DNA of 64,000 bases. It comes from Fidelibacterota bacterium (GTDB lineage: Bacteria > Fidelibacterota > Marinisomatia > Marinisomatales > SCKK01). A program made the position numbers and the translations under genes. This document shows, piece after piece, positions 9,252-32,840 of this stretch; position 1 is the first letter of the stretch; each line of letters begins with the position of its first letter. The DNA lies in assembly GCA_004124475.1 (NCBI GenBank), contig SCKK01000014.1:1-64000 (forward strand). Direction: 5' to 3'. Below the pieces are notes generated by a model that saw only the letters and a list, made by a program, of their open reading frames with translations, did not search any database and was not told the DNA's origin.

Positions 9252-9261
9252 AGATTGAGAA

Positions 9262-10323
9262 ATGAAAAGATTCTATTGGATTTCTGCTCCCATATTACTC
9301 ACTGTCTCCTTCACTCTTTTACCTCTTACGCTGTTTGAGAGCCATGGCCAGGACAGGGAACAGACTGATTTTCATCCCAGCATGTTGGCGTTTAGTAAGG
9401 CGATAATTGGGATCGATAAAGCGCTCCCCACGGGAGATATAAACGCGATGTTATCCCACACTGAAGTTTTGAAAAGGGAATTGGCAGAAATCGTGACCCT
9501 GGAGCCCCAGATAAACGAGGATATAATAGAGGTATTCAATGAATTACGGACAAGGATCGGAAGCTTAACGTCCGAATTGGAATCTCTTTTAGTAAATAGG
9601 AAATTCGCAAATGTGCCTCAGGTAGTGAACGACATTCGCCATACTTGCGTCTCCTGCCATGTGAAGTTTCGTGCTACCGGTGATGAGACCGGGTTTTTCC
9701 CAAATATCGGAAACGTTATCAGTGGCGAAGTGAGGGTTCTAAAATTGGATGGGGAGGAACGGGCTAAGCGGTCAGACGTCGTGGTCTTTCTGGAAGGGGT
9801 TAAGAACGAGACCGGTTTTCCACTTCCAAGGAAAAACCCTGTGATTTCTCAGAAACATCGGCGCTTTGAACCGAGGATTCTTCCTGTGATGAAGGGAACC
9901 ACAATTGACTTCCCTAACGATAACTCTATCTTTCACAACGTCTTCTCTCTTTCTAAGACTAGGCCATTCGATCTGGACATCTATCCCCCTGGGGAATCGA
10001 AGTCAATCACTTTCCCCAGGACCGGTTGGGTGAAGGTATATTGCAACATCCATCCCAAAATGGTTTCTCACATAATCGTCCTCGACAACCCGTTTTTCTC
10101 ACTGACCGATGAGAAGGGCATGTTCGTAATTTCAGGGGTGCCAGATGGGGAATACACCCTGACAACATGGCATGAGTTTGGGAAGCAGATTCCGATAATA
10201 GGGAAAGAGATAAGGGTATCCGGTTCAACAACTAATATTTACTCCTTAACGATGCAAGAGGTTAAGAGGTCCGTCCAACACAAGGACAAGTTTGGAAAAC
10301 CATACAAAAGGAAGTACGACTAA
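9262..10323 (+). CDS. Periplasmic haem-c and cupredoxin-like protein
   Basis: This 353-residue protein has a signal peptide (ISAPILLTVSFTLLPLTL). Residues about 35-145 form a helical segment ending in a haem-binding CVSCH motif (Cys129, Cys132, His133), like cytochrome c'/c556-type domains. Residues about 150-290 look like a plastocyanin-type domain with a complete type-1 copper set: His225 (SIFHNVF), Cys261, His264 and Met267 (YCNIHPKM). The tail (GMFVISGVPDGEYTLTTWHE) resembles a carboxypeptidase-regulatory-like beta fold, as in methylamine-utilisation-type plastocyanin-like proteins. The gene begins 10 bases after the porin and overlaps the next kinase by one base (TAATG). It is probably an electron carrier or redox sensor feeding the adjacent kinase; that link is inference. 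Confidence 0.85.
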   Translation: MKRFYWISAPILLTVSFTLLPLTLFESHGQDREQTDFHPSMLAFSKAIIGIDKALPTGDINAMLSHTEVLKRELAEIVTLEPQINEDIIEVFNELRTRIGSLTSELESLLVNRKFANVPQVVNDIRHTCVSCHVKFRATGDETGFFPNIGNVISGEVRVLKLDGEERAKRSDVVVFLEGVKNETGFPLPRKNPVISQKHRRFEPRILPVMKGTTIDFPNDNSIFHNVFSLSKTRPFDLDIYPPGESKSITFPRTGWVKVYCNIHPKMVSHIIVLDNPFFSLTDEKGMFVISGVPDGEYTLTTWHEFGKQIPIIGKEIRVSGSTTNIYSLTMQEVKRSVQHKDKFGKPYKRKYD

Positions 10324-12125
10324 TGCGTATATCCATTAGGTCCAAAATATTTCTAGTTGTCTTCACCGTTTCCGTAATCTTTGTTTTAATTTCTGCAATT
10401 GTTATGAATATTTTAATGGCAAGGATAGCAAATGACGAAGTGACTCAAAATCTCCGGGTAGGGAAAGAGGCATATGAACGGTTTATCGCCCTGCGGTACA
10501 GCCTCATCGAAAGTGAGGCAAGAATATTGTCACAGACGCCACACCTTAGAGCTGTGATGAATATTCCAGATGTCAATCATGAAACTGTCTTGTATACTGC
10601 CCAACCACTTTCCAAGATTAACGATATGAGTCTTATGCTGTTGTTGGATTCTCATGGGAAACTCCTTGCGGATGTTAGCGACCCTTCGGCTTCAGGTCAT
10701 GATTTTCAAAAATTTCCCGGCATGCAGGAGGCACTGAACGGAGCCGAATATAACGGAATCTGGCGGTACAAAGATAATCTTTACCCGATAGTGATAATCC
10801 CGATGATTATGGAAGATCACCTCCTCGGACTGTTAATCCTTGGAGATCTCTTGGATTCTAGCGCCGCGGAGGAAATTCGGTACTTTACTGGAAGAGACGT
10901 GCTGATTCTCGATTCCGAGAAACTGATTGCCCTTTCAAGGGGTAACCCTGAATATTCAGAAGTCGATCCAGCTGAAATTGCACACCTGGTCAATATTCTT
11001 GAAAACTTCGAAACATTGAATAGTTCCCCGGATTCCCCTTTCAGGGTCGTTTTAGGTAGAAAAGAGTGCCTCGCTGTTGCTGTTCCTTTCGGGAATAGGC
11101 AGGGATACACTATTCTGTTCAGAGCCTTGGATGAAGTGGATACCGGAGTGGACGTTATTAGGAGGGCGGTCTTAGGAGCGGCCGGTGGCACCATTATCTT
11201 GGCATTGCTTTTGAGTTTATGGGTTTCAGGAAGAGTGAGTCGGCCCATTCGAGATCTTCGAGATTCCGCTGAACAGTTTGGTGCTGGAAATCTTGAAAAA
11301 CGAGTAAGAGTCCATTCGTCAGATGAATTAGGTCAACTAGGAATAGCCTTTAACAACATGGCAGACAATTTGAACAAATCAAGGACAGAACTGATAGAAG
11401 CCCAAGAGCGGCTTGTCCGCACGGAGAGGTTGGCAGCCATCGGTGAGCTGTCAGGGGGGGTAGCGCACGAGCTGAGGAACCCCCTGGGGGCCATCAAGAA
11501 TGCCGCCTACTACATTAAGAGAAGGTTGCTCGGTTCCGACCTGGTCAAGGATGAGCCGAAGATTGGCGAGTTTCTGGAGATTATGGATGAGGAGATAGAG
11601 ACTTCGAACCAAGTAATAACAGACCTGATGGACTTCTCCCGGGTAAACCCACCCAAACTGTCCCCCACCAAACTTGAGGCTGTGGTGGATAGCGCCCTGT
11701 CCCGGCTAGAAGTGAAGGAAAACGTCAAGGTGGTTTTGGAGTTCGATCCCAGCTTTCCGGAAGTGGCAGTGGATACGGAGCAGCTCCGCAGGGCCTTCGG
11801 GAACCTGATCAAGAACGCTGACGAAGCCATGCCCGAGGGGGGCACCCTGACCATCACCGCTAAAACCGTCAACGGATTTGTGGAGTTGCAATTCCGCGAT
11901 ACGGGTCAGGGAATATCCGAGGCTGATTTACCTAAGGTCTTAGATCCTCTCTTCACCACCAAGCCGAAAGGCGTGGGGCTGGGATTGGCAATCATCAACT
12001 CGATCATCGAAATGCATCAGGGCAGTGTAGAGGTAAACAGCAAACAGGGGGAGGGGGCTACCTTCACTATTAGGCTCCCTCTAAGCAACCAGCAAGAAAC
12101 CCAAAGCTCAGAAAGCGAGGAGTAG
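10323..12125 (+). CDS. Membrane sensor histidine kinase (periplasmic sensor-HAMP-HisKA-HATPase)
   Basis: Residues 7-29 form the first membrane helix. Residues 30-280 are a periplasmic sensor region of double-Cache-like character (MLLLDSHGKLLADVSD, DVLILDSEKLIALSRG). Residues 283-303 are the second helix, followed by a HAMP domain (304-355). His382 in LSGGVAHELRNPLGAIKNA is the phosphoacceptor, and the ATPase has NLIKNADEAMPEGG, DTGQGISE and GVGLGLAIINSII. The class resembles NtrB/ZraS-like kinases. The start overlaps the stop of the haem/copper gene, so the two are translationally coupled and the periplasmic protein may modulate this sensor. No cytoplasmic receiver is fused. The likely acceptor is the REC-REC protein encoded 4 bases downstream. 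Confidence 0.92.
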   Translation: MRISIRSKIFLVVFTVSVIFVLISAIVMNILMARIANDEVTQNLRVGKEAYERFIALRYSLIESEARILSQTPHLRAVMNIPDVNHETVLYTAQPLSKINDMSLMLLLDSHGKLLADVSDPSASGHDFQKFPGMQEALNGAEYNGIWRYKDNLYPIVIIPMIMEDHLLGLLILGDLLDSSAAEEIRYFTGRDVLILDSEKLIALSRGNPEYSEVDPAEIAHLVNILENFETLNSSPDSPFRVVLGRKECLAVAVPFGNRQGYTILFRALDEVDTGVDVIRRAVLGAAGGTIILALLLSLWVSGRVSRPIRDLRDSAEQFGAGNLEKRVRVHSSDELGQLGIAFNNMADNLNKSRTELIEAQERLVRTERLAAIGELSGGVAHELRNPLGAIKNAAYYIKRRLLGSDLVKDEPKIGEFLEIMDEEIETSNQVITDLMDFSRVNPPKLSPTKLEAVVDSALSRLEVKENVKVVLEFDPSFPEVAVDTEQLRRAFGNLIKNADEAMPEGGTLTITAKTVNGFVELQFRDTGQGISEADLPKVLDPLFTTKPKGVGLGLAIINSIIEMHQGSVEVNSKQGEGATFTIRLPLSNQQETQSSESEE

Positions 12126-12129
12126 AAAG

Positions 12130-12864
12130 ATGGCCGGAACCAGACTTAAAGTTTTAGTGGTTGATGACATGCGGAACATGCGCCTGACCCTATCAGGAAT
12201 AATCGAGGACCACGGTTACGACGTGACCGGGGTGGAGGACGGATACGAGGCCATCGATGCAGCCAAGGAGACCGTCTTTGACCTGATCTTCATGGACATC
12301 AAGATGCCCGGCATCAACGGGGTTCAGACCTTTCGGGAGATCAAAAAAATCAGCCCGGAGTCGGTGGTGGTGATGATGACGGGTTTTGCGGTGGAAGACC
12401 TGGTGAAGGAAGCCCTGGAGGAGGGGGCGTTTGCCGCAATATATAAGCCTTTCGATGTAGACAAGGTCCTCACCCTTGTGAAGTCGGTACTCAAGACCGT
12501 CCTCATTCTAGTGGTTGACGACCGCTCATCGGACCGAGAGATTCTGAGCGAAATCCTGCGGGACCAGGGTTATCGAGTAGTCGAGGTAGCAGATGGAAAC
12601 GAGGCCCTCCAAGCAGTCATCACTCGCCACTACGACATCATCTTTATGGACATAAAGTTGCCTGGGAAACATGGGGTCGCCGTTTTCGAGGAGATCAAGG
12701 CCATAGACCCCGAAGTCAGGGCGATATTTATAACCGGCTTTGTGCTTGAGGATTCCATAAAACAAGCCTTAGACGCGGGTGCCTATCCGGTGGCTTTTAA
12801 ACCGTTCGAGGTGGAAAAAATCTTAGCTCTAGTCAAACAAATGAGCGCTGAAAAGTCCACATGA
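12130..12864 (+). CDS. Tandem receiver protein (REC-REC), no output domain
   Basis: This 244-residue protein is two complete receiver domains. The first has Asp56 in LIFMDIKMPG with MMTGF and IYKPFDVDK. The second has the acceptor Asp in IIFMDIKLPG with FITGF and AFKPFEVEKIL. The two halves are clearly paralogous (EALEEGAFAAIYKPF versus QALDAGAYPVAFKPF), which indicates an internal duplication. There is no DNA-binding or enzymatic domain, so it probably acts as a phosphate shuttle or sink, or by protein contact, between kinases encoded in the same operon. It follows the membrane kinase by 4 bases and overlaps the next gene by 4 bases (ATGA). Confidence 0.9.
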   Translation: MAGTRLKVLVVDDMRNMRLTLSGIIEDHGYDVTGVEDGYEAIDAAKETVFDLIFMDIKMPGINGVQTFREIKKISPESVVVMMTGFAVEDLVKEALEEGAFAAIYKPFDVDKVLTLVKSVLKTVLILVVDDRSSDREILSEILRDQGYRVVEVADGNEALQAVITRHYDIIFMDIKLPGKHGVAVFEEIKAIDPEVRAIFITGFVLEDSIKQALDAGAYPVAFKPFEVEKILALVKQMSAEKST

Positions 12865-14048
12865 GTACCGACGCGGCAAAAATCCTGGTAGCTGAAGACG
12901 ATGATGGGATGCGGACCACCTTGGTGGCCAACCTGGAAGACTTTGGGTACCGGGTGATGGCCTCCAAAAGCGTGAAAGAGGCCCTCGAGTGTGTCCAGCA
13001 AACTCCTCCGGACGTAGTGATAGCGGACTTGAGGCTGCCCGACGCCAGTGGCCTTGAGATTCTGGAAACCCTCAAAGAAATCAATCCTGACGCGGCCTTC
13101 ATCCTTGTTACCGGCTATGCCAGCCTGGAAACCGCGGTGGAGGCCCTGAATGAAGGGGCCTTCGCATACATAACCAAGCCTTACAACATGGACGAAGTCC
13201 ACAGCAACGTCCGTAGTGCTCTTAGACAGCAAAGGTTGTTGCGGGAGAACCGCAGGCTGGTGGATAACCTCCAGGTGTCGAATAAAGAGCTGGCTAAAGA
13301 AGTTGCCGAGCGTAAGCGGATGGAAGCGTCGTTGGCACGGCAGGCGAAGGAACTGGAGCGTTCCAACGCCGAACTGAAACAGTTTGCCTACGTCGCTTCG
13401 CACGACCTTCAGGAGCCACTTCGGGCGGTGGTGAGCTACTTGCAACTTCTGGACAGGCGTTACAGCGGCAAGCTCGATGCGGATGCAGATGAGTTCATCG
13501 GCTATGCAGTAGAAGGGGCAACCCACATGCGGGAACTCATCAATGACTTGTTAGCATATTCGCGCGTGAGCACCCACAGGAAACCCCTCCAGCCTACCGC
13601 CTGCTCTTCTATCCTGACCCGCGTGCTTGATAATCTAATGGTTCCTATTAAGGAGAGGGGGGCCGTGGTGACCCACGACACTCTGCCCGAATTGGTAGCC
13701 GACGCCACACAACTAACGCAATTGTTCCAGAACTTCATCAGCAATTCGATTAAGTTCTGCGGTGATAAACAGCCCAAAATTCACATTGGGGTTGAGCAAA
13801 AAGATGGCGAGTGGTTGTTTTCGGTGCGGGACAATGGCATTGGAATAGACCCTCAGTATGCCGAACGCATCTTTCTCATCTTTCAGCGCTTGCACAGCAG
13901 GTCAGAGTATCCGGGTACAGGTATTGGCTTGGCGATCTGCAAGAAGATTGTTGAACGGCACGGGGGGCGTATCTGGTTGGAATCGGAGCCAGGAAAAGGT
14001 GCGACGTTCTACTTCACAATCCGAGATCTTAGAGGTAATTCCTCATGA
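12861..14048 (+). CDS. Receiver-histidine kinase hybrid (REC-HisKA-HATPase)
   Basis: This soluble 395-residue protein has an N-terminal receiver (Asp56 in [10 protein letters not shown], Lys in [10 protein letters not shown]). A coiled-coil linker (about 120-172) leads to a HisKA domain with His181 in [21 protein letters not shown], the type found at the C terminus of phytochrome-like kinases. The ATPase shows [25 protein letters not shown] and [18 protein letters not shown]. With no sensor of its own, it is likely a relay whose kinase activity is set by phosphorylation of the receiver. It overlaps both neighbours by ATGA. The next gene encodes an Rcp1-like receiver, the usual partner of phytochrome-type kinase cores, so a direct pair is plausible. 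Confidence 0.9.
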
Positions 14049-14491
14049 ACCTGGAGGGAATCGGCAGGCCTATCGAGATCCTGTTGGTAGAAGACAACCG
14101 AGGGGATGTGCGCCTCACAATGGAATCCTTCAAAGATACCAAGGTGCGTAACAACCTGAGCGTGGTAGAGGACGGCATGGAAGCAATGGTGTTCCTGCGC
14201 AAAAAGGGGAAGTATGCCGAGGTCTCTCGTCCAGATCTCATCCTGCTCGATCTGAACCTGCCGAAGAAAGATGGGCGGGAGGTGCTTGCGGAGATTAAAG
14301 CCGATGAAGATCTGAGAACCATCCCTGTCATCGTCCTGACCAGTTCGCAGGCTGAAGAGGACGTCATCAAGACCTACCATCTTGGCGCGAACTGCTTTAT
14401 CACCAAGCCCGTTGACCTTGATCAGTTCATCAAGGTAACGAAGTCCATCAAGGAGTTCTGGCTCACTATCGTGAAACTGCCACCGGAGTGA
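14045..14491 (+). CDS. Single-domain response regulator, Rcp1-like
   Basis: This 148-residue protein is a lone receiver with Asp69 ([17 protein letters not shown]), the acidic pair in [19 protein letters not shown], and the Lys region [12 protein letters not shown]. The [16 protein letters not shown] and IPVIVLTSS wording is typical of Rcp1-type regulators that pair with phytochrome-like kinases. It has no output domain, so it acts as a phosphotransfer intermediate or by protein contact. The ATGA overlap with the REC-kinase gene and the 5-base gap to the next kinase place it inside one transcript. The upstream hybrid kinase is the most likely donor. Confidence 0.9.
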
Positions 14492-14496
14492 AAACA

Positions 14497-16065
14497 ATGT
14501 CGGACGGAATTTTTCGTAAAGATGCAGTGATCAAAATCCTGCTGGTAGAAGACAGCCCAGCCGACGCCCGTCTGCTGCGGGAGATGTTAGCGGATGTCAC
14601 CACCGCTCAGTTCGAATTGACACTAGTAGAACGGCTCAGCGATGCAGTGCAACGTCTCAGTGAAGAGTCCTTTGATGTGGTCCTCCTGGATATGATGCTA
14701 CCGGATTCGGCGGGACTTGACATACTCCTGCGTGCTCAAGAGGTAGCACCAGGTCTGCCAATGATCGTGTTGACTGGAACCTTCGAAGACGAAGCTTTGG
14801 CAGTAAAAGCGGTGCAGGAGGGTGCGCAGGACTATCTGTTCAAAGACCAGGTAGATGGTATCCTTCTGGTACGCTCTATCCGTTACGCCATCGAGCGCAA
14901 GCGGGCGGAAGAGGAATTGAAGGCATCTCAGGAATATTTAAGGAATCTCATCGATTGTTCTTTAGATATGATCATTGCTGTAGATAGGAACCGAAGGATT
15001 ACGGAGTTTAACCGTGCGGCTGAGGAGACCTTTGGATATCGCCGAGAGGATGTCTTAGGTAAACATGCGAACATTCTGTATGCAGATTCACAAGTAGGCC
15101 TGGAGGCCCATAAGACGGCCGTCGAGCAGGGTCAATCTGTGCAAGAAATTCTGAATAAACGCAAGAACGGTAAGGTCTTTCCGAGTCTTCTTTGCGCCTC
15201 AGTGCTCCTCGATTCACAGGGAAGAAGAGTGGGTGTCATGGGTATCTCTCGGGACATCACCGAAAAAAAACAGGCGGAAGAAGCACTACAAAAAGCCCAC
15301 GATGAATTAGAGGATAAAGTTAAGGAACGGACGGCTGAACTGGAACAGTCTAATATGGAACTGAAGGGCGAAATCACTTTGCGCAAGCACGCGGAAGAAC
15401 AACTGAAGAAATCGCATGATCAATTACGCAGGCACTCCGCACGCCTTCAAACTGTGAAGGAAGAGGAAAGAGAAAACCTTGCTCGGGAATTACACGATGA
15501 AATGGGCCATTCATTGACGGCATTGAAGATAGACCTCGTATCACTCTTAAATGATCCACTCATAAAAAGCAAGCCTCAGGCTGATGATTTGCAATCTATG
15601 ATTTCCCTGACTGACGATTCACTGCAAACGGTAAAGAGAATTGCCACTGAACTCAGACCCGGGGTGTTGGACCAGTTGGGTATCGGTGCGGCAATCGAGT
15701 GGCAATTGAAGGAATTTCAATCCCGGACCCAGATCAAATGCGAAGTCCGATTACCTGAAGAACGTTTAGGATTGGGCAAAGATAAGGATATTATCCTATT
15801 CCGCATCCTCCAGGAAGCGCTCACCAATGTAGCCCGGCACGCACAAGCGACAAATATTGTCATAACCCTACAAAAGGATAAACAATCAATTTCAATGACG
15901 GTTCAGGATGACGGCCGGGGAATAGAAGAAAGTGAAGTTGTAGGTATGAGATCTCTAGGTCTGCTTGGCATGCGAGAACGTTCACATTTAGTGGGCGGTA
16001 AATTGACAATCACAGGAGAACAAGGCAAAGGGACAACGATATCGGTTTCAGTCCCGATTGATTAG
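14497..16065 (+). CDS. REC-PAS-histidine kinase with NarX-type core
   Basis: This soluble protein of 522 residues (ATG 14497 is preferred over GTG 14488 because GGAG sits 8 bases before it) has three parts. An N-terminal receiver (Asp65, VVLLDMMLPDSAG) is followed by one PAS domain (about 145-260, ending DITEKKQAEE) and a coiled coil. The HisKA_3/HATPase core has the acceptor His333 in ARELHDEMGHSLTALK. The core and the following regulator are nearly identical at DNA level to the 3' end of the giant kinase and its truncated regulator, which shows module exchange. The receiver at the front allows input from the upstream relay, and the output is probably the NarL-type regulator 39 bases downstream. 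Confidence 0.9.
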   Translation: MSDGIFRKDAVIKILLVEDSPADARLLREMLADVTTAQFELTLVERLSDAVQRLSEESFDVVLLDMMLPDSAGLDILLRAQEVAPGLPMIVLTGTFEDEALAVKAVQEGAQDYLFKDQVDGILLVRSIRYAIERKRAEEELKASQEYLRNLIDCSLDMIIAVDRNRRITEFNRAAEETFGYRREDVLGKHANILYADSQVGLEAHKTAVEQGQSVQEILNKRKNGKVFPSLLCASVLLDSQGRRVGVMGISRDITEKKQAEEALQKAHDELEDKVKERTAELEQSNMELKGEITLRKHAEEQLKKSHDQLRRHSARLQTVKEEERENLARELHDEMGHSLTALKIDLVSLLNDPLIKSKPQADDLQSMISLTDDSLQTVKRIATELRPGVLDQLGIGAAIEWQLKEFQSRTQIKCEVRLPEERLGLGKDKDIILFRILQEALTNVARHAQATNIVITLQKDKQSISMTVQDDGRGIEESEVVGMRSLGLLGMRERSHLVGGKLTITGEQGKGTTISVSVPID

Positions 16066-17677: not shown

Positions 17678-20176
17678 ATGGAATTGCGCAAAATTATGCA
17701 TGAATCTGAAGCATTAGAATACCAGCATAATCAGCAAAACGGGGTACAAATGGCTGGGAAACATTATCAGACTACCTCTGTTTTCACCAACTACTGGGAA
17801 TACTGGAAGAACCCCGATGGAACAATACGCTATATTTCCCCTTCCTGTGAGCGTATTACTGGCTATACTTCCAATCAGTTTATAGATACCCCCTCACTTC
17901 TGCAAGAGATAATTTTGCCTGAAGACAAGGAAATATGGGCTGAACATCTCAAAAAAGTAGAAGAAGCACCTGGGTTAAATGGAGTTCAATTCCGAATCCA
18001 AAGGCAGGGTGGTGAGATACGTTGGATCGAACACACTTGTGAGCCGGTGATGGATGAGCAGGGTTTGTTACTTAGGTATCACGCCAACAACTGGGACATC
18101 ACCAAACGAAAGCAGATAGAAGAGCAATTGCTCATTAATAAAAGGGCAATCGATGCCGCTAATGATGGCATCATCATCACTGATTCGAGTCTACCTGATA
18201 ACCCAATCATTTATGCAAATGCTGCATTTTACTCAATAACCCAGTATTCCCCAAGAGGCGTTATTGGTAAAAACCTCCACATCTTAGAGGGTGTAAGCAC
18301 AGATCCTAAAATTAAAAGAGAGATCAGATCGGCTATTAGGAAAGGCCGATATTTTACCTGTGAAGTTCTAAACTACAGAAAAGATGGAACCCCATTTTGG
18401 AATGAAATGACCCTGAGTCCGGTGTATGATACCGCTGAAAAACTCACCCATTTAATAATGATTCATAAAGATATCACCAAACGTAAACAGATCGAGGAAG
18501 CCCTACACCGGCGGGATGAAATACTCCAGGCGGTAGCATTTTCAGCTGAACGACTCCTCCACATGCCAGATATGGAGCAAAGTTTACAGGAGGTTATTAA
18601 ACGCCTTGGTATTGTGACCAATGTTTCTCGGGTTTATATCTGCAAGAACCATACCGATGAATTTAGTGCATTGCTGGTTGGCAGGTGGTACGAGTGGACT
18701 GCCGTCGGCGTCACGCCACGAAATGATTCCGATAATTTTCAAAACTTTCAGATGGTTGAGTATGAATTTGATCGTTGGGTAAACATATTGAGCCAGGGGA
18801 AATCCTTGTACGGTTTGGTGAGGGAATTTCCACAGAACGAACGCCAGGTCTTAGAGTCTGCTGGTGTACAATCCATCCTGGTAATACCGATCTTCGTTGA
18901 GGGAAAATGGTGGGGGTCAATTGGTTTTGACGTATGTGCAGTCGAAAAGGAGTGGATGGAAATAGAAATTGAGACGCTCAAGATGGCAGCAAATGTAATG
19001 GGTGCTGCTATCGAACGTCAATGGATAGAGGACCAGCTTCGCCAATCTCACAAGATGGAAGCAATAGGTCTTCTGGCAGGAGGGATTGCCCATGACTTCA
19101 ATAATATTCTCACAGCTATAATGGGATATAGCCACTTGTTAATGACCCGGATCCAGGATAATGAACCATTAAAGCCGTATGTTGCAGAGATAATTGACTC
19201 TTCAACCAAGGCTGCTAATCTGGTCCAGGGGCTGCTTACCTTCAGCAGGAAACAAGCAATAAGACCACACCCTGTTAATCTCAATGAGATTGTTCGAAAA
19301 GCGGAAATCCTTTTGTTACAACTAATTGATGAAGAGATTGAACTGAAGACAATGCTTGCTGATAAGGATTTGATCATTAACGCCGATGCAGGACAAATAG
19401 AGCAAGTATTGATAAACCTTGTGGTAAACGCCAGGGATGCTATACCGGATACAGGCTCTATAACAATTAGGACAGGGCTTGTAAATGTAAATGAGGAAGG
19501 GGTAATGATTAAGGGTGAAAAGCGAGCCGAGAAGTATGCTCTTCTCTCCGTTAGAGATACAGGTACAGGGATGGATTACAAAAGAAAAGAGAAAATATTC
19601 GAACCTTTCTTTACGACGAAAAAGGTAGGCAAAGGGACCGGATTGGGCTTATCAATCGTGTACGGAATTATCAAACAGAGCCAGGGTCACATAAGTATCG
19701 ACAGCGAACTAGGGAAGGGGACCACATTTAAGATATTTCTCCCGATAACCAATGGTGATATTTTAAAATTAGGATCAATGTCAATATCCGATGTCCCACA
19801 AATAGAAGTTACGGAGACTATCCTGATTGCAGAGGACGATGCAGGGGTAGGAAAGTTCCTGAAGAACGTGCTAGAGAGTGCGGGCTATACAGTTATTGTG
19901 GCCGTAGATGGCAAAGATGCAATCAATAAATTTAAAGCTAACAAGGACATAATCCAGCTTCTAATAACCGATGCGATTATGCCCAAGAAGAATGGAAAAG
20001 AGCTTTATGATGCGGTTAAGAAAATAAAGCCGGACATGAAGACAATTTTTATTAGTGGTTATGCCGGAGAAGTAATAAAAAATAAAGGAATAGATGTAGA
20101 AACAGTAAACTTCATAGCTAAACCATTTATACCGGGAACACTTTTAAATACGGTAAGAAAACTGTTAGATCAATAA
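17678..20176 (+). CDS. Hybrid histidine kinase PAS-LOV-like PAS-GAF-HisKA-HATPase-REC
   Basis: This soluble 832-residue protein has the domains PAS (about 40-145), a LOV-like PAS (about 150-270), GAF (about 285-445), HisKA with His472 in LAGGIAHDFNNILTAIMGY, HATPase (NLVVNARDAIPDTG, DTGTGMD, GTGLGLSIVYGII), and a C-terminal receiver with Asp765 (LLITDAIMPKKNG). The second PAS has the LOV sequence style (ANAAFYSITQYSPRGVIGKN, NYRKDGTPFWNEMTLSPVYD), but the site of the photoactive cysteine is Leu200 (GKNLHILEG where GRNCRFLQG is usual). Almost the same DNA encodes the matching domain in the kinase at 30792. Flavin binding is possible, but normal cysteine-adduct photochemistry is not. Confidence 0.92.
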   Translation: MELRKIMHESEALEYQHNQQNGVQMAGKHYQTTSVFTNYWEYWKNPDGTIRYISPSCERITGYTSNQFIDTPSLLQEIILPEDKEIWAEHLKKVEEAPGLNGVQFRIQRQGGEIRWIEHTCEPVMDEQGLLLRYHANNWDITKRKQIEEQLLINKRAIDAANDGIIITDSSLPDNPIIYANAAFYSITQYSPRGVIGKNLHILEGVSTDPKIKREIRSAIRKGRYFTCEVLNYRKDGTPFWNEMTLSPVYDTAEKLTHLIMIHKDITKRKQIEEALHRRDEILQAVAFSAERLLHMPDMEQSLQEVIKRLGIVTNVSRVYICKNHTDEFSALLVGRWYEWTAVGVTPRNDSDNFQNFQMVEYEFDRWVNILSQGKSLYGLVREFPQNERQVLESAGVQSILVIPIFVEGKWWGSIGFDVCAVEKEWMEIEIETLKMAANVMGAAIERQWIEDQLRQSHKMEAIGLLAGGIAHDFNNILTAIMGYSHLLMTRIQDNEPLKPYVAEIIDSSTKAANLVQGLLTFSRKQAIRPHPVNLNEIVRKAEILLLQLIDEEIELKTMLADKDLIINADAGQIEQVLINLVVNARDAIPDTGSITIRTGLVNVNEEGVMIKGEKRAEKYALLSVRDTGTGMDYKRKEKIFEPFFTTKKVGKGTGLGLSIVYGIIKQSQGHISIDSELGKGTTFKIFLPITNGDILKLGSMSISDVPQIEVTETILIAEDDAGVGKFLKNVLESAGYTVIVAVDGKDAINKFKANKDIIQLLITDAIMPKKNGKELYDAVKKIKPDMKTIFISGYAGEVIKNKGIDVETVNFIAKPFIPGTLLNTVRKLLDQ
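18111..18490 (+). repeat. LOV-like PAS DNA module, copy 1
   Basis: This module is colinear and about 94% identical by eye to 31297-31676. The duplicated unit spans a whole PAS domain with its linker, and flanking sequence diverges sharply on both sides. Confidence 0.85.
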
Positions 20177-21777: not shown

Positions 21778-22026
21778 ATGGATGTGTTCAAAAAAACAGA
21801 TGTAATAAAATTTCTGGAGAATGAGAATATAAGAAATGAAATAATCGACTACGCCCTTCGTGATTCAAATATGACAAACAAGATTGTTGAGGACTTAGGG
21901 GATGAAATAGCCGATATTCTTAAAGATGATCCGGCGTTTAGACAAAGATTACTTTCTATTACTGCTGCAAAACCAGAATTTCGGGAAAAAATTATCACCA
22001 ACCTCATTAAAGCGTTTAGAGATTAA
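21778..22026 (+). CDS. Small acidic helical protein (paralogue of 24082)
   Basis: This 82-residue soluble protein is entirely helical in pattern and has no recognised family. It aligns end to end with the 83-residue protein at 24082: DV..FL/ML, (R/D)EII, KI/EL VEDLGDEI/AEDVADEL, DDPAFRQRLL/EDPNFRKKIV, PEFREKII/PEFKKSVI. The ribosome site AGGAG is 8 bases before the ATG. It lies between the HhH gene and the sigma54 activator. The repeated D-D-P-x-F-R pattern suggests a conserved helical interaction surface rather than an enzyme. Confidence 0.75.
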   Translation: MDVFKKTDVIKFLENENIRNEIIDYALRDSNMTNKIVEDLGDEIADILKDDPAFRQRLLSITAAKPEFREKIITNLIKAFRD

Positions 22027-24081: not shown

Positions 24082-24333
24082 ATGGGATTCATAGAAGAAT
24101 CAGATGTTCGCCAAATGTTGAGTGACGAGAAATTGGTAGATGAAATTATCACTGCCCTCGTCAGCGATCCGGGTGTACTTAAAGAACTTGCGGAAGATGT
24201 GGCCGATGAGCTCGAAGACCTGTTGGAAGAGGATCCGAACTTTCGCAAAAAGATAGTTGAAGAAGCAATATCAAATCCGGAATTCAAGAAGAGTGTGATC
24301 CAACAACTCGTGGCTGAAATGACCGATGATTAG
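24082..24333 (+). CDS. Small acidic helical protein (paralogue of 21778)
   Basis: This 83-residue strongly acidic protein has no known family, signal or membrane helix. It aligns over its full length with the 82-residue protein at 21778 (see the shared EDPNFRKK/DDPAFRQR and PEFKKSVI/PEFREKII blocks). AAGGAG lies 8 bases before the ATG. It stands alone after a 463-base intergenic region with a candidate enhancer and sigma54 promoter, and an 18-bp hairpin follows it. A highly expressed short transcript is possible. Confidence 0.75.
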   Translation: MGFIEESDVRQMLSDEKLVDEIITALVSDPGVLKELAEDVADELEDLLEEDPNFRKKIVEEAISNPEFKKSVIQQLVAEMTDD

Positions 24334-24404: not shown

Positions 24405-26879
24405 ATGTTTAAACAAAATACAACTATGAAAAGTATTAAAAATGACGAAGGTAAATCCAGGTTTAGGACAGAATTATTGGAAAATGGAAGTGAAAATAAT
24501 GGCGAAATATTAGAGTATCAATCCAATCGATACCAACGATTTGAATCAGACGGTCTGGCATCAAAGATTCAGACCTGGATTGATTCTTATAAGAATTTTA
24601 TTAGTGTTTTTGAAAAATATTTAGCACTTATAGTAGTCATATGCTTTATTGTAGGAGTTCTAATATCGGGTATTCCCGGCATAGCTGACGGCGTTTTCAG
24701 CGCCATGGATGGCTTTATAGAATTTTATGGGCTATTCGCTCCTCTCATTATCTTTATCATATTAGCTCCTTCCTTGGCGCAAATGGTCAATGCCAGAAAA
24801 GGGAAACGTAGTGATTTCATATCGTATGCAATTTTCTGGCTTTCCGTTAGACGCTTACTATCGTTATTTTGGGCGGTCTTATTTACCTGGTTCGTTTTTG
24901 ATCTTTCCTTTTATGGTGGTGGGAGCTCAGGCAGTCTGATAACGTCATTAAAAACGACTGGCCAGAACTTGATACATATGTTTTTGACCAGTCATTATTT
25001 CTATGCCATGTATCTCGCAGTGGCCTCCCTATTGGTGGCTAAGAAATACCCACGTTTTGAACGCTTTATGCGCAAGATTTTGAATGGTGTAGAGAATATG
25101 GGCCAGTATTTTATTCCTATCATTCCTGTCTTTATGTTGTCCATTGGTATATATGTATCCCAGATCGATACGAGATTGAATGATCAAATAGTGTCGGGGT
25201 ATAATGAACAGATTAATAGTTTGCTCGCGATAGAAGTAAAGTCCCCCGAGATTAATGAAAAAATTACGAATCTGATAATGCTGAAAGAAAAAACAGTTAC
25301 GGAACCTACATCCCTAAAACATATTTCCATTTTTGGTTGGGAACCCGAAATGAACAGTGACTACAGCATGGTATGGATCTATGTACTTATTTCATTGGTC
25401 ATCGGTTTAGCATGTATTCTCTGGCATTTCGGATTGTTAGTAATAACAAAGGCTAAGGTAAAAGATTTTTCAATAAAAAAATATTTTAAGGGATATTGGT
25501 CAAAAGTGTATCCCCTACTGTGGGCAACCAGTTCAGAAGCACTGGCAACTCCGCTGAATCTTTACCTCGTTAAACGCCATTATCCAAAAGTTCGTACAAA
25601 GGTTCGACAATTTACCATTGGGGTTGGTAGTTACTTGAGTATCAATGGCACGATGATTTGTGTGATTGTTTTAGCGGGTGCAGTGGCTAACATCCTGGGA
25701 GTCGATTTGACAGCCATTCAACTCTTTCTATCTATCCCAATGGTATTTCTGATCGGTTTTGGCGTTCCAGGCATTCCAGGCGAATTACTGTTGTTTGGTG
25801 GTCCATTATTAGAGTTATTCGATTTATCACCGGAAGTACAACCCGTTTTCCTCGCCCTGTACCTTGGTTTACAAATAGGTTTGCCTGATTCATTTAGAAC
25901 CGGAAATAATTCTACTGATGATTGTGTAATGTCAATCCTCCTGAATGAAGAATATAAAAATAAATTCAGTGACGATAGACTTTACATAGATGAATTATTA
26001 GAGGATTCCACCTTTAGGCGGTTGTTCGCCTCTCAATTTGTCGAACAATTTGAATCGTTCTTCATGACCTCCGCCATTGAAAATAATGTTACTGGTAAAC
26101 GCCAGCCACTTGCTACCCATAGAGAAAAACATAAAAAAGTGAAAGAGGAAAGAAAAATTCGAATATTAGATCGTCGGGCGGTACAATTAGCAAACCTTCA
26201 TACTGTCATAAGTTCTCCACGAGGCGAATTCTTCCGGTTTAGGCTATTACAAATGTTGGAGAGGGAAAAGAGCCTGACAGAGCTGCTTGAACAGAAAGAA
26301 AAGGAACCGATAAAAGAATTAAGCCGGCATCTTAGAATGCTTCAAGAATTCTCCCTGGTTGCTGAAATGATGACGGATGGAAAAAGGATGTATAAGAGGA
26401 CAACGAAAGGTGAAGCGACGATCAATGCTCTCCGTGCTCTGGGCCGGAGAGTTGGTGAGGAAACGTTTTCCAGTATTTTGCATGCCAACTTTGGCGTTAA
26501 TAGTATCCGGCTCTTTTTACGTACGTACGGATACAAGAAGGATTTGGATTTGAGAAAGCCACAAGTTGAATTCACACCATATGAAGTTGGAAAAATTGCC
26601 CTGTTTCTTCGTCATAATGTTGTAGCGGGAGTTTCAGTAATAGATAAACTCAGCAGTACTGGAATACTCGTCTATTTAGAGGATGGGACAATTCGCTTGG
26701 ACTCCAAAAAAGCTCAGGCACTATTCCAGTATTGGGTAGACTTAAATGGAATATTAAACAGACCTATTTTGTACGAATTTCTATTTCAGCCTTCGTCAAA
26801 TGGTAATTCATCGGGATCTCAATCGGTTGAAAAGGGAAACAGTGTATTTATTGCAAACGGAGAAAAATATGTTGCTTAA
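24405..26879 (+). CDS. Glutamate/dicarboxylate-symporter-fold protein fused to a winged-helix-like tail
   Basis: This protein has 824 residues. After a 70-residue polar N terminus, residues about 72-510 form a multi-helix membrane domain with the sodium:dicarboxylate symporter landmarks: HP1 Ser region TSSEALATPLN (about 375-385), SINGT (412-416) in place of NMDGT, HP2 GVPGIPGE (453-460), and PDSFRTGNNSTDDC (494-507) matching D..RT..N...D. Against GltPh, Asp394, Arg397, Asn401 and Asp405 equivalents are kept, while Asp312 is Asn414 and Asp390 is Ile491, so cation coupling is probably changed. Residues about 520-824 are cytoplasmic and include a winged-helix-like stretch (RLLQMLEREKSLTELL..KELSRHLRMLQEFSLVAEM..KRMYKRTTKGE). 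The gene overlaps the anti-sigma gene by 11 bases. A transporter turned receptor is inferred. Confidence 0.8.
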   Translation: MFKQNTTMKSIKNDEGKSRFRTELLENGSENNGEILEYQSNRYQRFESDGLASKIQTWIDSYKNFISVFEKYLALIVVICFIVGVLISGIPGIADGVFSAMDGFIEFYGLFAPLIIFIILAPSLAQMVNARKGKRSDFISYAIFWLSVRRLLSLFWAVLFTWFVFDLSFYGGGSSGSLITSLKTTGQNLIHMFLTSHYFYAMYLAVASLLVAKKYPRFERFMRKILNGVENMGQYFIPIIPVFMLSIGIYVSQIDTRLNDQIVSGYNEQINSLLAIEVKSPEINEKITNLIMLKEKTVTEPTSLKHISIFGWEPEMNSDYSMVWIYVLISLVIGLACILWHFGLLVITKAKVKDFSIKKYFKGYWSKVYPLLWATSSEALATPLNLYLVKRHYPKVRTKVRQFTIGVGSYLSINGTMICVIVLAGAVANILGVDLTAIQLFLSIPMVFLIGFGVPGIPGELLLFGGPLLELFDLSPEVQPVFLALYLGLQIGLPDSFRTGNNSTDDCVMSILLNEEYKNKFSDDRLYIDELLEDSTFRRLFASQFVEQFESFFMTSAIENNVTGKRQPLATHREKHKKVKEERKIRILDRRAVQLANLHTVISSPRGEFFRFRLLQMLEREKSLTELLEQKEKEPIKELSRHLRMLQEFSLVAEMMTDGKRMYKRTTKGEATINALRALGRRVGEETFSSILHANFGVNSIRLFLRTYGYKKDLDLRKPQVEFTPYEVGKIALFLRHNVVAGVSVIDKLSSTGILVYLEDGTIRLDSKKAQALFQYWVDLNGILNRPILYEFLFQPSSNGNSSGSQSVEKGNSVFIANGEKYVA

Positions 26880-27507
26880 AGGGATATCATTCCCCGTTAC
26901 TAAAAAGTGGAATGAAACTGATGGATTTCTAGAGAATTTTCGACGCTTTTCTTTCATGGAAGCACTTACCGAAATCAGTCTTATTTTTACGAATAAAGGT
27001 AATTTCGTAGAAGGTAAAGATGTATTCAACCAGGCTTTTAGAAAAGAGCCGGGGCGCTGGGGTATTGATTTCCATGAAACTGGTAATTATGCTTCTGGTA
27101 AGGAAATCTACCTTGGAATTCCGGCAGACGTAAACTACTTGATTATTCCACGATTGGTTGTATCCGGAATCGGGTCATCGTTGACACTCACCTTTGATAC
27201 CATAGAGGATTTGAAGATTGCTCTTTCAGAAGCTTGTAGCAATGTTATCAAGCATGCGTACCAACTAAATAAAACCGGGAATAATATTACAATCAGGTTT
27301 TTAATCCAGAAGGGTTCGTTATCAATGGTTGTAAAAGATACAGGTAAAGGTTTCGATACCAAAATTTTAAATGCCAATAATGTTCCCTTATCAAGAGGTA
27401 AAGGACTTGGCTTATTTCTGATTAAGAGCCTTATGGATAAAGTACAAGTGAATAGTATTGTGGATCAAGGTACTGAGGTTAAAATGATCAAATTCTTAAC
27501 AAACTGA
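26869..27507 (+). CDS. RsbW/SpoIIAB-like serine kinase (anti-sigma factor)
   Basis: This protein of 212 residues starts at ATG 26869 with GGAG 6 bases upstream. Residues 1-80 are unrecognised. Residues about 85-212 are a GHKL ATPase with the N box (LSEACSNVIKHAY), G1 (DTGKGFD) and G2 (GKGLGLFLIKSLMD), as in RsbW/SpoIIAB switch kinases. The start lies inside the 3' end of the transporter-fusion gene and the stop is 10 bases before a sigma factor gene, so translational coupling is likely. It probably binds and inhibits that sigma factor. No anti-anti-sigma (STAS) gene is in the window, so release may depend on another partner. Confidence 0.85.
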   Translation: MLLKGISFPVTKKWNETDGFLENFRRFSFMEALTEISLIFTNKGNFVEGKDVFNQAFRKEPGRWGIDFHETGNYASGKEIYLGIPADVNYLIIPRLVVSGIGSSLTLTFDTIEDLKIALSEACSNVIKHAYQLNKTGNNITIRFLIQKGSLSMVVKDTGKGFDTKILNANNVPLSRGKGLGLFLIKSLMDKVQVNSIVDQGTEVKMIKFLTN

Positions 27508-27517
27508 AAGCGGATTA

Positions 27518-28408
27518 ATGAAAGAAGGAAGGATGGAATTGCAACAACCAACATCAAAACTTCTCCAGGTTATCCCGCACGGGAGTAAAGGAGAAAGAAA
27601 CCAAACGGTACCAATAAATATTATTGGTTATCGCAAATCTACATACGCACAGGAGGATAATGAAGAAAGGAAACACCTGATCTTTCAACACCTTGGGCTT
27701 GTGTCACTCCTTGCCAAAAGATTCAAAGGTCGGGGAATCGCATATGAAGACTTGGTTCAGGTAGGAATCGTAGGTCTGATCAAAGCGATTGAAAATTTCA
27801 ATCCGAATAATGGTACGAAATTGGCGACGTTCGCGACCCATTATATTGTGGGAGAAATCAAACATAATTTTCGTGATAACGGGTGGTATCTTAAGGTCCC
27901 GAGGAGGATGAAAGATTCGCGAAATCAAGTGTTAAACGAGGTCGAATTCCTTACTAATTTGTTGCAACGATCACCTACTATTTCAGAAATAGCGAAACAT
28001 ATAGTAAGATCGGAAGAAGAGGTGATAGAAATTATGGAACTGAATGAAGCTTATGCACCTTCCTCGCTAGATGGACCAATTTCCAGAGAAAAGAACGACG
28101 GTTCTTTTTCAGTTATGGATGTCTTAGCTGGCGAAAACTTTGAAGACGCCTTAATTGATAATATAAGCTTGGATTTCGCCAAAAAAGTACTTACCAACCG
28201 GGAACGAACAATTGTGGTTCTTTATTTTGAATATGACATGTCCCAATCTGAAATAGCTCAGGAATTGAGAATTTCACAGGGACATATTTCTCGTTTGTTA
28301 AGGCTCAGTTTGAAGAAGATGAGAGAATTTATGCTGTCGGATAAACCGGAAGCCGCTTCAAGAATGCATAATAAGACCAGGCGTACTAATTCACACAATT
28401 ACGTATGA
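27518..28408 (+). CDS. SigB/SigF-type alternative sigma-70 factor
   Basis: This 296-residue protein shows region 2 (HLGLVSLLAKRFKGRGIAYEDLVQVGIVGLIKAIENFNPNNGTKLATFATHYIVGEIKHNFRD), region 3 (MKDSRNQVLNEVEFLTNLLQRSPTISEIAKHI) and region 4 (LTNRERTIVVLYFEYDMSQSEIAQELRISQGHISRLLRLSLKKMRE). The IVGEIKHNFRDNGW wording is characteristic of the group 3 general-stress/sporulation sigma factors. A second start at 27533 is possible. It follows the anti-sigma gene by 10 bases. SigB-like motifs upstream of 20314 and possibly 21778 suggest it controls its own neighbourhood. Confidence 0.93.
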   Translation: MKEGRMELQQPTSKLLQVIPHGSKGERNQTVPINIIGYRKSTYAQEDNEERKHLIFQHLGLVSLLAKRFKGRGIAYEDLVQVGIVGLIKAIENFNPNNGTKLATFATHYIVGEIKHNFRDNGWYLKVPRRMKDSRNQVLNEVEFLTNLLQRSPTISEIAKHIVRSEEEVIEIMELNEAYAPSSLDGPISREKNDGSFSVMDVLAGENFEDALIDNISLDFAKKVLTNRERTIVVLYFEYDMSQSEIAQELRISQGHISRLLRLSLKKMREFMLSDKPEAASRMHNKTRRTNSHNYV

Positions 28409-28951: not shown

Positions 28952-29665
28952 GTGTCGTTTAATATCCGGTTATTACTACCTTTTTTCATACCGATTATTA
29001 TTATGGGACAGGAATCGCTACTGTTTTCTGCAGGACGGCCAAGTGCAGGTGAACCAAGCACCGTCGTACCCAAAGGATTTTTCCAATTCGAATCAGGTTG
29101 GAGAAAAAATGAGAGTAGGAGTAGAAATGTGTTGGTACGGATGGGGCTTACGAATAGAATAGAACTGCGATTCTCACTTGATGATATAATAACAGATCAT
29201 GAGCCTTTTTATGGAGGATTCATGGGTGGCATAATGTACCAGTTGACCAAAGAGGATAGAAAACGTCTGGAAAGTGCATTGTATGTGACTGTTTCTGCGC
29301 CAAATAGGGACGACGGTGTTTCCTTCGACGGAGCAACGTATAAATTCTTTGCTGCTTTATCCGCTTTTATGGGTGATATCGGTTTAGATTTTAATCTCGG
29401 TGGGTCATCGTACAGCGAAACCTTTACGGTTTTCTACACGGCGGGTGTAGGATATGATCTAACAGACAAGATCAGTGTTTTCATTGAAGCATATGGCCAT
29501 GCACTCACAAGTGGCTTTCCTGAATTAGTACAATCGGTTGATGGGGGTATTACTTACCGACCATTCCATGTATTTCAAATTGACATAAATGGCGGATTGG
29601 GTCTAACTGAAAAGGGTGAAGATACGTTTGTCGAAGTTGGGCTTGCATTTCGATTGCCCCACTAA
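28952..29665 (+). CDS. Outer-membrane beta-barrel protein, phenol MetA-type family
   Basis: This 237-residue protein starts with GTG (AAGGGT upstream). It has a signal peptide (LLLPFFIPIIIMGQESLLFSAG). Alternating strands follow, with the family phrases GFFQFESGW, LRFSLDD, GVGYDLTDKISVFIEAYG, VDGGITYRPFHVFQIDINGGLGLT and VEVGLAFRLPH. This matches the putative MetA-pathway/transporter beta-barrel family of about 12 strands. It is flanked by the sigma/anti-sigma genes and the degenerate RsbW-like gene, which suggests that the sigma system senses or modifies the envelope. Confidence 0.8.
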   Translation: MSFNIRLLLPFFIPIIIMGQESLLFSAGRPSAGEPSTVVPKGFFQFESGWRKNESRSRNVLVRMGLTNRIELRFSLDDIITDHEPFYGGFMGGIMYQLTKEDRKRLESALYVTVSAPNRDDGVSFDGATYKFFAALSAFMGDIGLDFNLGGSSYSETFTVFYTAGVGYDLTDKISVFIEAYGHALTSGFPELVQSVDGGITYRPFHVFQIDINGGLGLTEKGEDTFVEVGLAFRLPH

Positions 29666-29706: not shown

Positions 29707-30261
29707 ATGAGATTTCTCGGTAGAATGTTACCGTTCATTAATCGGATTGTAGAGACAGCCGCTGAAGCTGTCGATAAACTTGAAGCCGTTATGGTGAAGG
29801 AAATAACAGATGAATTTGCAGTGTTTCCTTCCTCCCACGTTAGAGAAGAAATTGATAAGATATTGGATGAACTATTCAACAATCCCAATTCTCCAGGTAG
29901 TTACTTGGCGGAGATGGATTCCTGTCTTGAAATACCAGTTGACGTGGACAATTTGATAATAGGAAAACTCACGGTATTTGGAATAAATTACGCATTAAAC
30001 TGTGAAGATTTAGAGGATCTTCGTCAAACCATTATGCAGACTCTTATCGATATTGTCAGTCAAACATTCCCATTAGATGTGTCAGGGGAGAAACTATCGA
30101 TACTGTTTTCTGTGGAGAGAGATAGGTTGGCGATTATTCTAAGAACCTATTTTCGGAGCGTGGAGACGAAGATGGTGGAGCACGAAAAAAGTTATGGGTC
30201 GAGGTATGCAGAACCTATAGAGATAAGTTGGAATATTACACCATCGCCGGCGTTTGGTTAA
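29707..30261 (+). CDS. RsbW-related protein lacking ATP-binding boxes
   Basis: This 184-residue protein aligns with residues 75-165 of the anti-sigma kinase at 26869: CLEIPVDVDNLIIGKLTVFGI against YLGIPADVNYLIIPRLVVSGI, and LEDLRQTIMQTLIDIVSQTF against IEDLKIALSEACSNVIKHAY. The N-box Glu and Asn are replaced (T, I), the DTGKGFD box is RTYFRSV-like, and no GLGL box is present. It is therefore a catalytically dead GHKL-fold paralogue, full length for its kind and well spaced from its neighbour with a ribosome site (AGGAGCA). It might act as a decoy or dimerisation partner in sigma-factor control. The function is inferred. Confidence 0.7.
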   Translation: MRFLGRMLPFINRIVETAAEAVDKLEAVMVKEITDEFAVFPSSHVREEIDKILDELFNNPNSPGSYLAEMDSCLEIPVDVDNLIIGKLTVFGINYALNCEDLEDLRQTIMQTLIDIVSQTFPLDVSGEKLSILFSVERDRLAIILRTYFRSVETKMVEHEKSYGSRYAEPIEISWNITPSPAFG

Positions 30262-30791: not shown

Positions 30792-32840
30792 ATGAATATC
30801 AAAATTGATAAAAAATTAGTTGCTAGAAAGATCAAACGAAAGATTATGGATCAATTCGACCAAGAAGTATTCGAATTGCCTCAGCGGAATATGCTATTTG
30901 AAGCCAAGGATACCCATCACACACCGATGGGGGAAAAAACATCTGAGGCTTATTATAAATCTATTTTTGAAAAATCCAAGGATGGTATTGTAGTCATTAA
31001 TGAAAAGGAGATAATAGTAGATTTCAACAGGGCGTTTATTGATATGCTTGGTTATACCCAAAAAGAATTAAAAAAATCAAAATTCAAAAAACTAACTCCG
31101 GAAATTTTCTCCCAATTAGATAATAAAGCATATCGGCAGCTCTTAAAACGAGGATATTTTGAAGAATATGAAAAAGAATTAATTAAAAAGGACGGGACAA
31201 GAATACCCATTACTCTGAACGGAGCGATGATCAGTGGTAAGGCAGATGATCCTCACTGTAAAGCCTTCGCCTTTATAAGAAACATTACCGATCACAAGCA
31301 GATAGAAGAGCAATTACTCATTAATAAAAGGGCAATCGATGCCGCTAATGATGGTATTGTCATCACTGATTCGAGTCTATCTGATAACCCAATCATTTAT
31401 GCAAATGCTGCATTTTACTCAATAACCCAGTATTCCCCAAGAGGCGTTATTGGTAAAAACCTCCACATTTTAGAGGGTGAAAGCACAGATTCCAAAATTA
31501 AAAGAGAAATCAGATCGGCTATTAGGAATGGCCGATATTTTACCTGTGAAGTTTTAAACTACAGAAAAGATGGAACCCCATTCTGGAATGAAATGACCCT
31601 GAGTCCGATATATGATACTGCTGAAAAACTCACCCATTATGTAACGATTCATAAAGATATCACCAAGCGGAAACAAGCTGAAGTTGAATTAATCAAAGCA
31701 AAAGAGGAAGCCGAAAAGTCTAATAGTGTAAAATCATTGTTTTTAGAAAACATGTCTCATGAGATTCGAACGCCTCTAAACTCAATTCTTGGATTTATAG
31801 ATATTATTAAAGATAGTATTGATCATTTGTTAGGTGAAGAAGAGAAAGGATTTTTGGATATATTAAAAAGTAGTGGTGAGCGATTGTACCGAACAATACA
31901 CGGAATTCTGGATATTTATCAGATTGAAACCGGGACTCTCGATTTTAATCTTAAGCGATTACGACCCCATAATTTGGTTGAAAAGATAGTAAAGGAATTT
32001 CTACCTGAAGCTCAATCGAAGGGGTTAGAATTGATCTATATACCCAAAGTAATAGATGCCACTATAATAGCAGATGAGCCAAGTTTAATTAGTGCGGTTT
32101 CCAACCTTGTGGATAATGCTGTCAAATACACAGAACAAGGGAAGATTGAAGTATCATTGATTAAAAAGGGCAAAGAATTAATGCTTACTATCAAAGATAC
32201 TGGAATTGGGATAGCCGAAGATTATCTAGATCACATATTTAATTCTTTTTCTCAGGAAAGTACAGGTTACACCAAGAAATACCAGGGTTTGGGACTGGGA
32301 CTTGCAATTGCTAAAAGATATCTGGAAGTGAATAATGTCGGTATAGAAGTACAAAGTACCAAAGGGATCGGGACAACCATTACGCTAACTTTTAAGACTA
32401 TAACCAAATTGTTACCACAAGAAACTACAGAAATAGAAGATAAACTGGCGACAGAGGTTGAAAAGATTGTTACTAAATGGAAACCGATTGTGTTGGTGGT
32501 TGAGGATGATCCCAATTCCCAGAGACTGATGGAATTTTATTTGAAGAAAGATTACGAAACATGCTTTGCAGTATCTGTGTCTGAGGCCAGACGACAGTTG
32601 AAAAAATATCCAGTGAATTTGATTCTGCTGGATTTGTCACTAATAGGCGATGAGGGTGGGCTTGATTTAGCTCGCTACCTGCGTAAGACCAAGAAATGGC
32701 GAGATATCCCGATTATTGCTTCGACAGCCCACGCCTTCACCACAGATCGGGACAATTGTCTTGCTGCCGGGTGTAATGATTACCTGGTAAAGCCCATCAA
32801 AAGGGAAGAGCTATTAGAAAAGATAAGTAACTTTGTTTGA
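30792..32840 (+). CDS. Hybrid histidine kinase PAS-LOV-like PAS-HisKA-HATPase-REC
   Basis: This soluble 682-residue protein has PAS 1 (about 50-165), a LOV-like PAS (about 170-290) with Leu224 at the photoactive-cysteine position (GKNLHILEG), HisKA with His323 (LFLENMSHEIRTPLNSILGF), HATPase (NLVDNAVKYTEQG, DTGIGIAEDYLDHIFNSF, GLGLGLAIAKRY), and a receiver with Asp614 (LILLDLSLIGDEGG) and Lys in YLVKPIKREEL. The LOV-like module is nearly identical in DNA to that of the kinase at 17678, while the first PAS and kinase class differ. It is the last plus-strand gene before a convergent minus-strand block. The receiver also resembles the relic at 1370-1619. Confidence 0.92.
   Translation: MNIKIDKKLVARKIKRKIMDQFDQEVFELPQRNMLFEAKDTHHTPMGEKTSEAYYKSIFEKSKDGIVVINEKEIIVDFNRAFIDMLGYTQKELKKSKFKKLTPEIFSQLDNKAYRQLLKRGYFEEYEKELIKKDGTRIPITLNGAMISGKADDPHCKAFAFIRNITDHKQIEEQLLINKRAIDAANDGIVITDSSLSDNPIIYANAAFYSITQYSPRGVIGKNLHILEGESTDSKIKREIRSAIRNGRYFTCEVLNYRKDGTPFWNEMTLSPIYDTAEKLTHYVTIHKDITKRKQAEVELIKAKEEAEKSNSVKSLFLENMSHEIRTPLNSILGFIDIIKDSIDHLLGEEEKGFLDILKSSGERLYRTIHGILDIYQIETGTLDFNLKRLRPHNLVEKIVKEFLPEAQSKGLELIYIPKVIDATIIADEPSLISAVSNLVDNAVKYTEQGKIEVSLIKKGKELMLTIKDTGIGIAEDYLDHIFNSFSQESTGYTKKYQGLGLGLAIAKRYLEVNNVGIEVQSTKGIGTTITLTFKTITKLLPQETTEIEDKLATEVEKIVTKWKPIVLVVEDDPNSQRLMEFYLKKDYETCFAVSVSEARRQLKKYPVNLILLDLSLIGDEGGLDLARYLRKTKKWRDIPIIASTAHAFTTDRDNCLAAGCNDYLVKPIKREELLEKISNFV
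31297..31676 (+). repeat. LOV-like PAS DNA module, copy 2
   Basis: This is the partner of 18111-18490. Similarity covers exactly one PAS domain and its DITKRKQ linker. Confidence 0.85.

Follow-up and report, generated by a model that had tools for sequence, protein, structure and literature searches.

In the window, meaning the whole stretch of 64,000 nucleotides analysed, which comes from a 3.15-Mb MAG of a marine bacterium and is rich in signalling genes, we identified an intact open reading frame (ORF) of 824 codons on the + strand (24405-26879). The ORF is also intact in a congener (same genus), with 99% identity, but TAA stands at the third codon of the congener's copy when counting starts at its first ATG. 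Because of this TAA, the ATG at 24429 was preferred over 24405, and translation probably starts there to give a protein of 816 aa (24429-26879, +). Homology to SDF proteins is far above chance (Pfam SDF PF00375; E=1.4e-21, 77.4 bits against a gathering cut-off of 27.9, residues 325-514), and a profile built from three family members matches the solved SLC1 structures of GltPh, GltTk, ASCT2 and EAAT, the best E value being 2e-7. Among curated NCBIfam models, SstT, a Na+/serine-threonine symporter (NF010151), came nearest, and its equivalog threshold was missed (29.6 bits against 308). The predicted product is thus a divergent SLC1/SDF membrane protein. Its membrane part, delimited by the Pfam match, the alignment with tail-less orthologues and the PDB profile matches, spans residues about 60-520 (24582-25964, +) and is followed after TM8 by a C-terminal cytoplasmic tail of 305 residues (520-824; 25962-26876, +). 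We refer to it as the SDF-tail protein.

The RsbW/sigma operon

The gene directly downstream encodes an RsbW-type GHKL kinase/anti-sigma factor of 212 aa from its ATG (26869-27507, +), as judged by HATPase_c_2 (E=8.4e-24, 84.4 bits against a cut-off of 27.4) and NCBIfam RsbW (E=9.1e-36, with the equivalog cut-off missed at 122.7 against 145). Its nucleotide-binding motifs, the N-box and G-boxes, are intact in the translation. The start codon at 26869 overlaps the SDF-tail stop codon at 26877 and is preceded six bases upstream by GGAG, in agreement with the preliminary description of this DNA, in which the gene was said to be coupled to an anti-sigma kinase. A sigma factor gene of the SigB/F/G group (27518-28408, +) begins 10 bp past the RsbW stop codon; regions 2, 3 and 4 score above their Pfam cut-offs and the TIGR02980 match (E=2.9e-65) lies just below its own (220.2 against 234.35). 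As in the RsbW/SigB and SpoIIAB/SigF partner-switching modules, a GHKL kinase therefore adjoins a SigB/F/G-type sigma factor. In contrast to those modules, the operon has neither a STAS antagonist nor a PP2C phosphatase (no such gene was recognised with Pfam beside the SDF-tail, RsbW and sigma genes), and a transporter-fold protein occupies the upstream place. A complete RsbU-RsbV-RsbW set is found on another contig of the same genome. With no STAS or PP2C gene recognised in the operon itself, there is room for another input here.

Upstream, 71 bp before the 24405 ORF, lies a gene for a small helical cytoplasmic protein of 83 aa (24082-24333, +), possibly the first gene of the operon. The product is a paralogue of that of 21778-22026 (30% identity over 82 aa, shuffle z=19), and these helical proteins of 82-83 residues, which have a shortened relative on contig C23, were found only in this genus among the genomes tried, with no match in five others.

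Several further features of the window were recorded. A degenerate RsbW paralogue (29707-30261) resembles the operon RsbW (shuffle z=17.5) and is devoid of the nucleotide-binding motifs. The gene at 28952-29665, for an outer-membrane-barrel-like protein, has 20 differences from the congener, all amino-acid-changing and 0 at third codon positions, a pattern that suggests diversifying change; a neighbouring response-regulator gene likewise shows few silent differences. Two histidine kinase genes (17678-20176 and 30792-32840) share a near-duplicate PAS-region segment with 89-93% DNA identity. Finally, the stretch 8000-16000, with a G+C content of 0.48-0.53 against about 0.40, holds genes for kinases and response regulators, along with a weak copper-binding-like match, and was possibly acquired.

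A rare subfamily with tail-less orthologues

When 392 genomes (about 150 of them from other phyla) were searched with the whole protein, a single genome outside the genus, G331, yielded an orthologue. Identity is 60% across residues 303-524 and 35% across residues 50-262, and the open frame of 505 codons is tail-less. Searching the phylum of G331 added a second tail-less orthologue, in G399. No additional orthologues were found when a profile was run against 384 more widely spread genomes or in two other phyla (sets that held no positive control), and viral contigs and plasmids contained ordinary symporters and no closer relatives. In a whole-species contig set, searched with a sensitivity suited to close relatives only, the congener alone matched. 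The TM8 and hairpin motifs are invariant across the three family members, which are 35-47% identical, and by these searches the SDF-tail protein belongs to a small, rare subfamily. Among the genomes searched, fusion of SDF to the tail occurs only in one Neomarinimicrobiota genus (two congeneric genomes), and adjacency to sigma genes is likewise confined to that genus.

Both tail-less orthologues are located away from any sigma or anti-sigma gene. The tail-less gene of G331, like that of G399, has genes for HMA_2 proteins and small membrane-like proteins as its neighbours, together with one for a heavy-metal P-type ATPase that carries HMA_2 at its N-terminus; the ATPase of G399 is cut by the contig end. 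This conserved cluster of the other phylum (L056:8641-15745 and L057:1-3776), to which G331 adds ParA, may be ferrosome-like. Downstream of the tail-less SDF gene in G331, a protein of 156 residues (L056:11053-11523) has an N-terminal hydrophobic stretch and a C-terminus that looks winged-helix-like by eye; it matched no family. The shared setting in both other-phylum genomes would fit a subfamily whose real role is linked to the handling of metals or to an iron-storage compartment, with the protein re-used by the Neomarinimicrobiota genus. The window's genome, however, holds no close relative of the HMA_2-type ATPase, its only strong match being an ordinary metal ATPase with 27% identity, and we regard such an origin as very unlikely.

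To place the binding-site residues, GltPh numbering was taken from the PDB alignment and from an alignment of 42 sequences. In GltPh, the substrate is contacted by R397, D394 and N401, Na1 by D405, and Na3 by N310 and D312 (PMC4900748, PMC3302783). The substrate residues are kept in the window protein (D394 as D495, R397 as R498 and N401 as N502) within the TM8 substrate-site motif LQIGLPDSFRTGNNSTDD (25869-25922, +), and D394, R397, T398 and N401 are kept in three of three family members. D506 aligns with GltPh D405, a position that varies between D, E and N across the three family members, with an invariant Asp one position earlier. In contrast, D312 is replaced by Asn414 and N310 by Ser412 in the TM7 motif, which reads SINGT in place of NMDGT (25638-25652, +). 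D390 corresponds to Ile491 in an ungapped alignment or to Gln490 with a one-residue gap at P494, neither of which is Asp. Therefore, both the retention of the Asp394, Arg397, Asn401 and Asp405 equivalents and the replacement of Asp312 and Asp390, as previously described, were reproduced by alignment. Two further changes place Glu at the hairpin tips, in WATSSE at HP1 (S278 to Glu; 25521-25538, +) and in GVPGIPGE at HP2 (A358 to Glu; 25761-25784, +), both invariant in the three family members.

Most of these changes extend beyond the tailed protein. S278 to Glu, D312 to Asn, S349 to Gly, A358 to Glu and D390 to Gln are common to all three family members, and the TM7 motif of the tail-less relatives reads NINGT and NVNGT, the two orthologues having Asn at position 310. 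Because the tail-less orthologues carry identical changes, the altered residues were not acquired together with the tail; the cation-site change is, on this alignment, a trait of the subfamily and not a consequence of the tail. NMDGT is likewise absent from the accepted SDF members SstT and TcyP. At positions 312 and 390 of this alignment, Asn and Glu are found in E. coli TcyP and Ala and Gly in E. coli SstT, while position 405 is Asn in the E. coli H+ symporters GltP and DctA; all four are annotated cation symporters. Of the 34 other SDF proteins aligned, most of which come from Neomarinimicrobiota, nearly all keep D312 and D405, and for this reason the window protein is unusual among SDF proteins, yet it falls within the range of transporters. 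Compared with the SLC1/DAACS family (PF00375) and its nearest member SstT, the HP1, TM7, HP2 and TM8 motifs align, the four TM8 substrate-site residues are shared, and D312 and D390 are missing in both SstT and the window protein; the differences are SINGT, Glu at S278 and A358, and the long C-terminal tail.

These residues bear on whether transport was lost. In the preliminary description, the replaced cation residues were read as a sign that a transporter had become a ligand receptor, i.e. a pure receptor that no longer transports. The equivalents of N310, D312 and D390 are indeed all replaced in the window protein, and in GltPh uptake is abolished by D312A and by N310A (PMC3302783), while D405N removes the Na1 signal (PMC4900748). 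However, D312 and D390 are naturally absent from SstT and TcyP, as is D405 from GltP and DctA, and the tail-less relatives show the same changes. The step from missing cation residues to missing transport was therefore rejected, changed ion sites being insufficient by themselves to show that transport has stopped. The case for a transporter that turned into a receptor is thus weak and unestablished, and we consider a pure receptor quite improbable. The same comparisons speak for an ordinary transporter, cation-coupled and belonging to a divergent SDF subfamily, in which the tail would only regulate or anchor the protein and the sigma module, merely co-transcribed, would have other inputs: the tail-less orthologues, which resemble plain transporters, have every one of the unusual residues, and these cation positions also vary among characterised transporters. 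Against it stand the long tail with its helix-turn-helix (HTH)-like segment, overlapped by the kinase gene, and the density of signalling genes in the window, and we judge this account somewhat unlikely.

The cytoplasmic tail

No homologue of the tail was found outside the genus in searches of genomes and plasmids, and a PDB search with the tail gave no match. A search for homologues with the same tail, as proposed in the preliminary description, thus returned this genus alone, and no described family with the SDF-tail fusion was found in the libraries and genomes searched, as that description had supposed. Residues 611-665 (26235-26399, +) likely form a winged helix of the ArsR/HTH_20 type. 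This segment, a subfragment chosen post hoc, matched HTH_20 with E=0.0012 (0.024 for the whole protein; 19.3 bits against a curated cut-off of 27) and NCBIfam ArsR with E=5.5e-4 (0.018 for the whole protein; 19.7 bits against a curated 55), and an ArsR-type HTH was its top family in both libraries. AlphaFold models, made without a usable alignment, were of low confidence, with a pLDDT of 37 for the whole tail and 54 for residues 588-690 alone. The earlier proposal of a 300-residue tail with a winged-helix pattern is upheld for the tail itself, while the pattern is weakly supported by matches below curated cut-offs. A second possible winged-helix-like segment (26460-26780, +) was noted by eye and from low-confidence secondary structure; it had no family match.

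Within the locus, divergence from the congener is lowest in the tail, at 0.22% compared with 4-8% between genes. The tail has two differences, both amino-acid-changing, and 0 silent ones, and such figures do not establish that it is under purifying selection.

A candidate SLC1-based transceptor

By sequence, a transporter fold is fused to a cytoplasmic non-transport domain, the arrangement by which a transceptor is recognised. We tentatively favour, at slightly less than an even chance, the reading of the SDF-tail protein as a transceptor of SLC1 (DAACS/SDF) fold, with a domain that binds an anionic substrate and a tail that regulates the RsbW/sigma pair. Through the retained R397 and D394 equivalents, the divergent membrane domain would bind an anionic substrate, probably an acidic amino acid or a dicarboxylate. 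Transport of this substrate may persist, with a set of cations other than that of GltPh. The state of this domain, whether substrate binding or transport, would then be relayed through TM8 to the cytoplasmic tail, which is predicted to contain the ArsR-like winged helix, and the tail may regulate the translationally coupled RsbW/sigma pair via protein contact or DNA binding. A narrower version, in which a ligand in the SLC1 site controls a winged-helix tail directly governing its own RsbW/sigma module, would represent a previously undescribed, one-protein input to sigma partner switching; this we hold to be unlikely.

Two known systems offer parallels to such a transceptor. In E. coli, the SLC1 protein DctA controls the sensor kinase DcuS via a helix directly after TM8 (PMC8307970). 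The window protein is likewise an SLC1 protein with its C-terminal part beginning just past TM8, the region that in DctA controls a signalling protein. However, DctA acts through a short helix on a sensor kinase that is a separate protein, whereas here a 300-residue fused tail accompanies an RsbW/sigma pair. CbrA is an SLC5 transporter joined to a histidine kinase (PMC13022988) and resembles the window protein in having a transporter fold fused to a cytoplasmic part, which signals in CbrA, and a small protein encoded upstream. In contrast, the transporter folds differ, the fused part of the window protein lacks a kinase, and its small upstream protein is soluble and, as far as tested, unrelated.

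A natural control is provided by the tail-less orthologues, whose binding sites carry the same changes, so that transport and signalling are separable in tests. If the tail signals, the SLC1 fold would join a short list of transporter folds that are fused to regulatory domains, and the RsbW/sigma switch would gain a direct nutrient input that replaces STAS and phosphatase proteins. The SDF-tail protein may thereby couple nutrient sensing or uptake to transcription.
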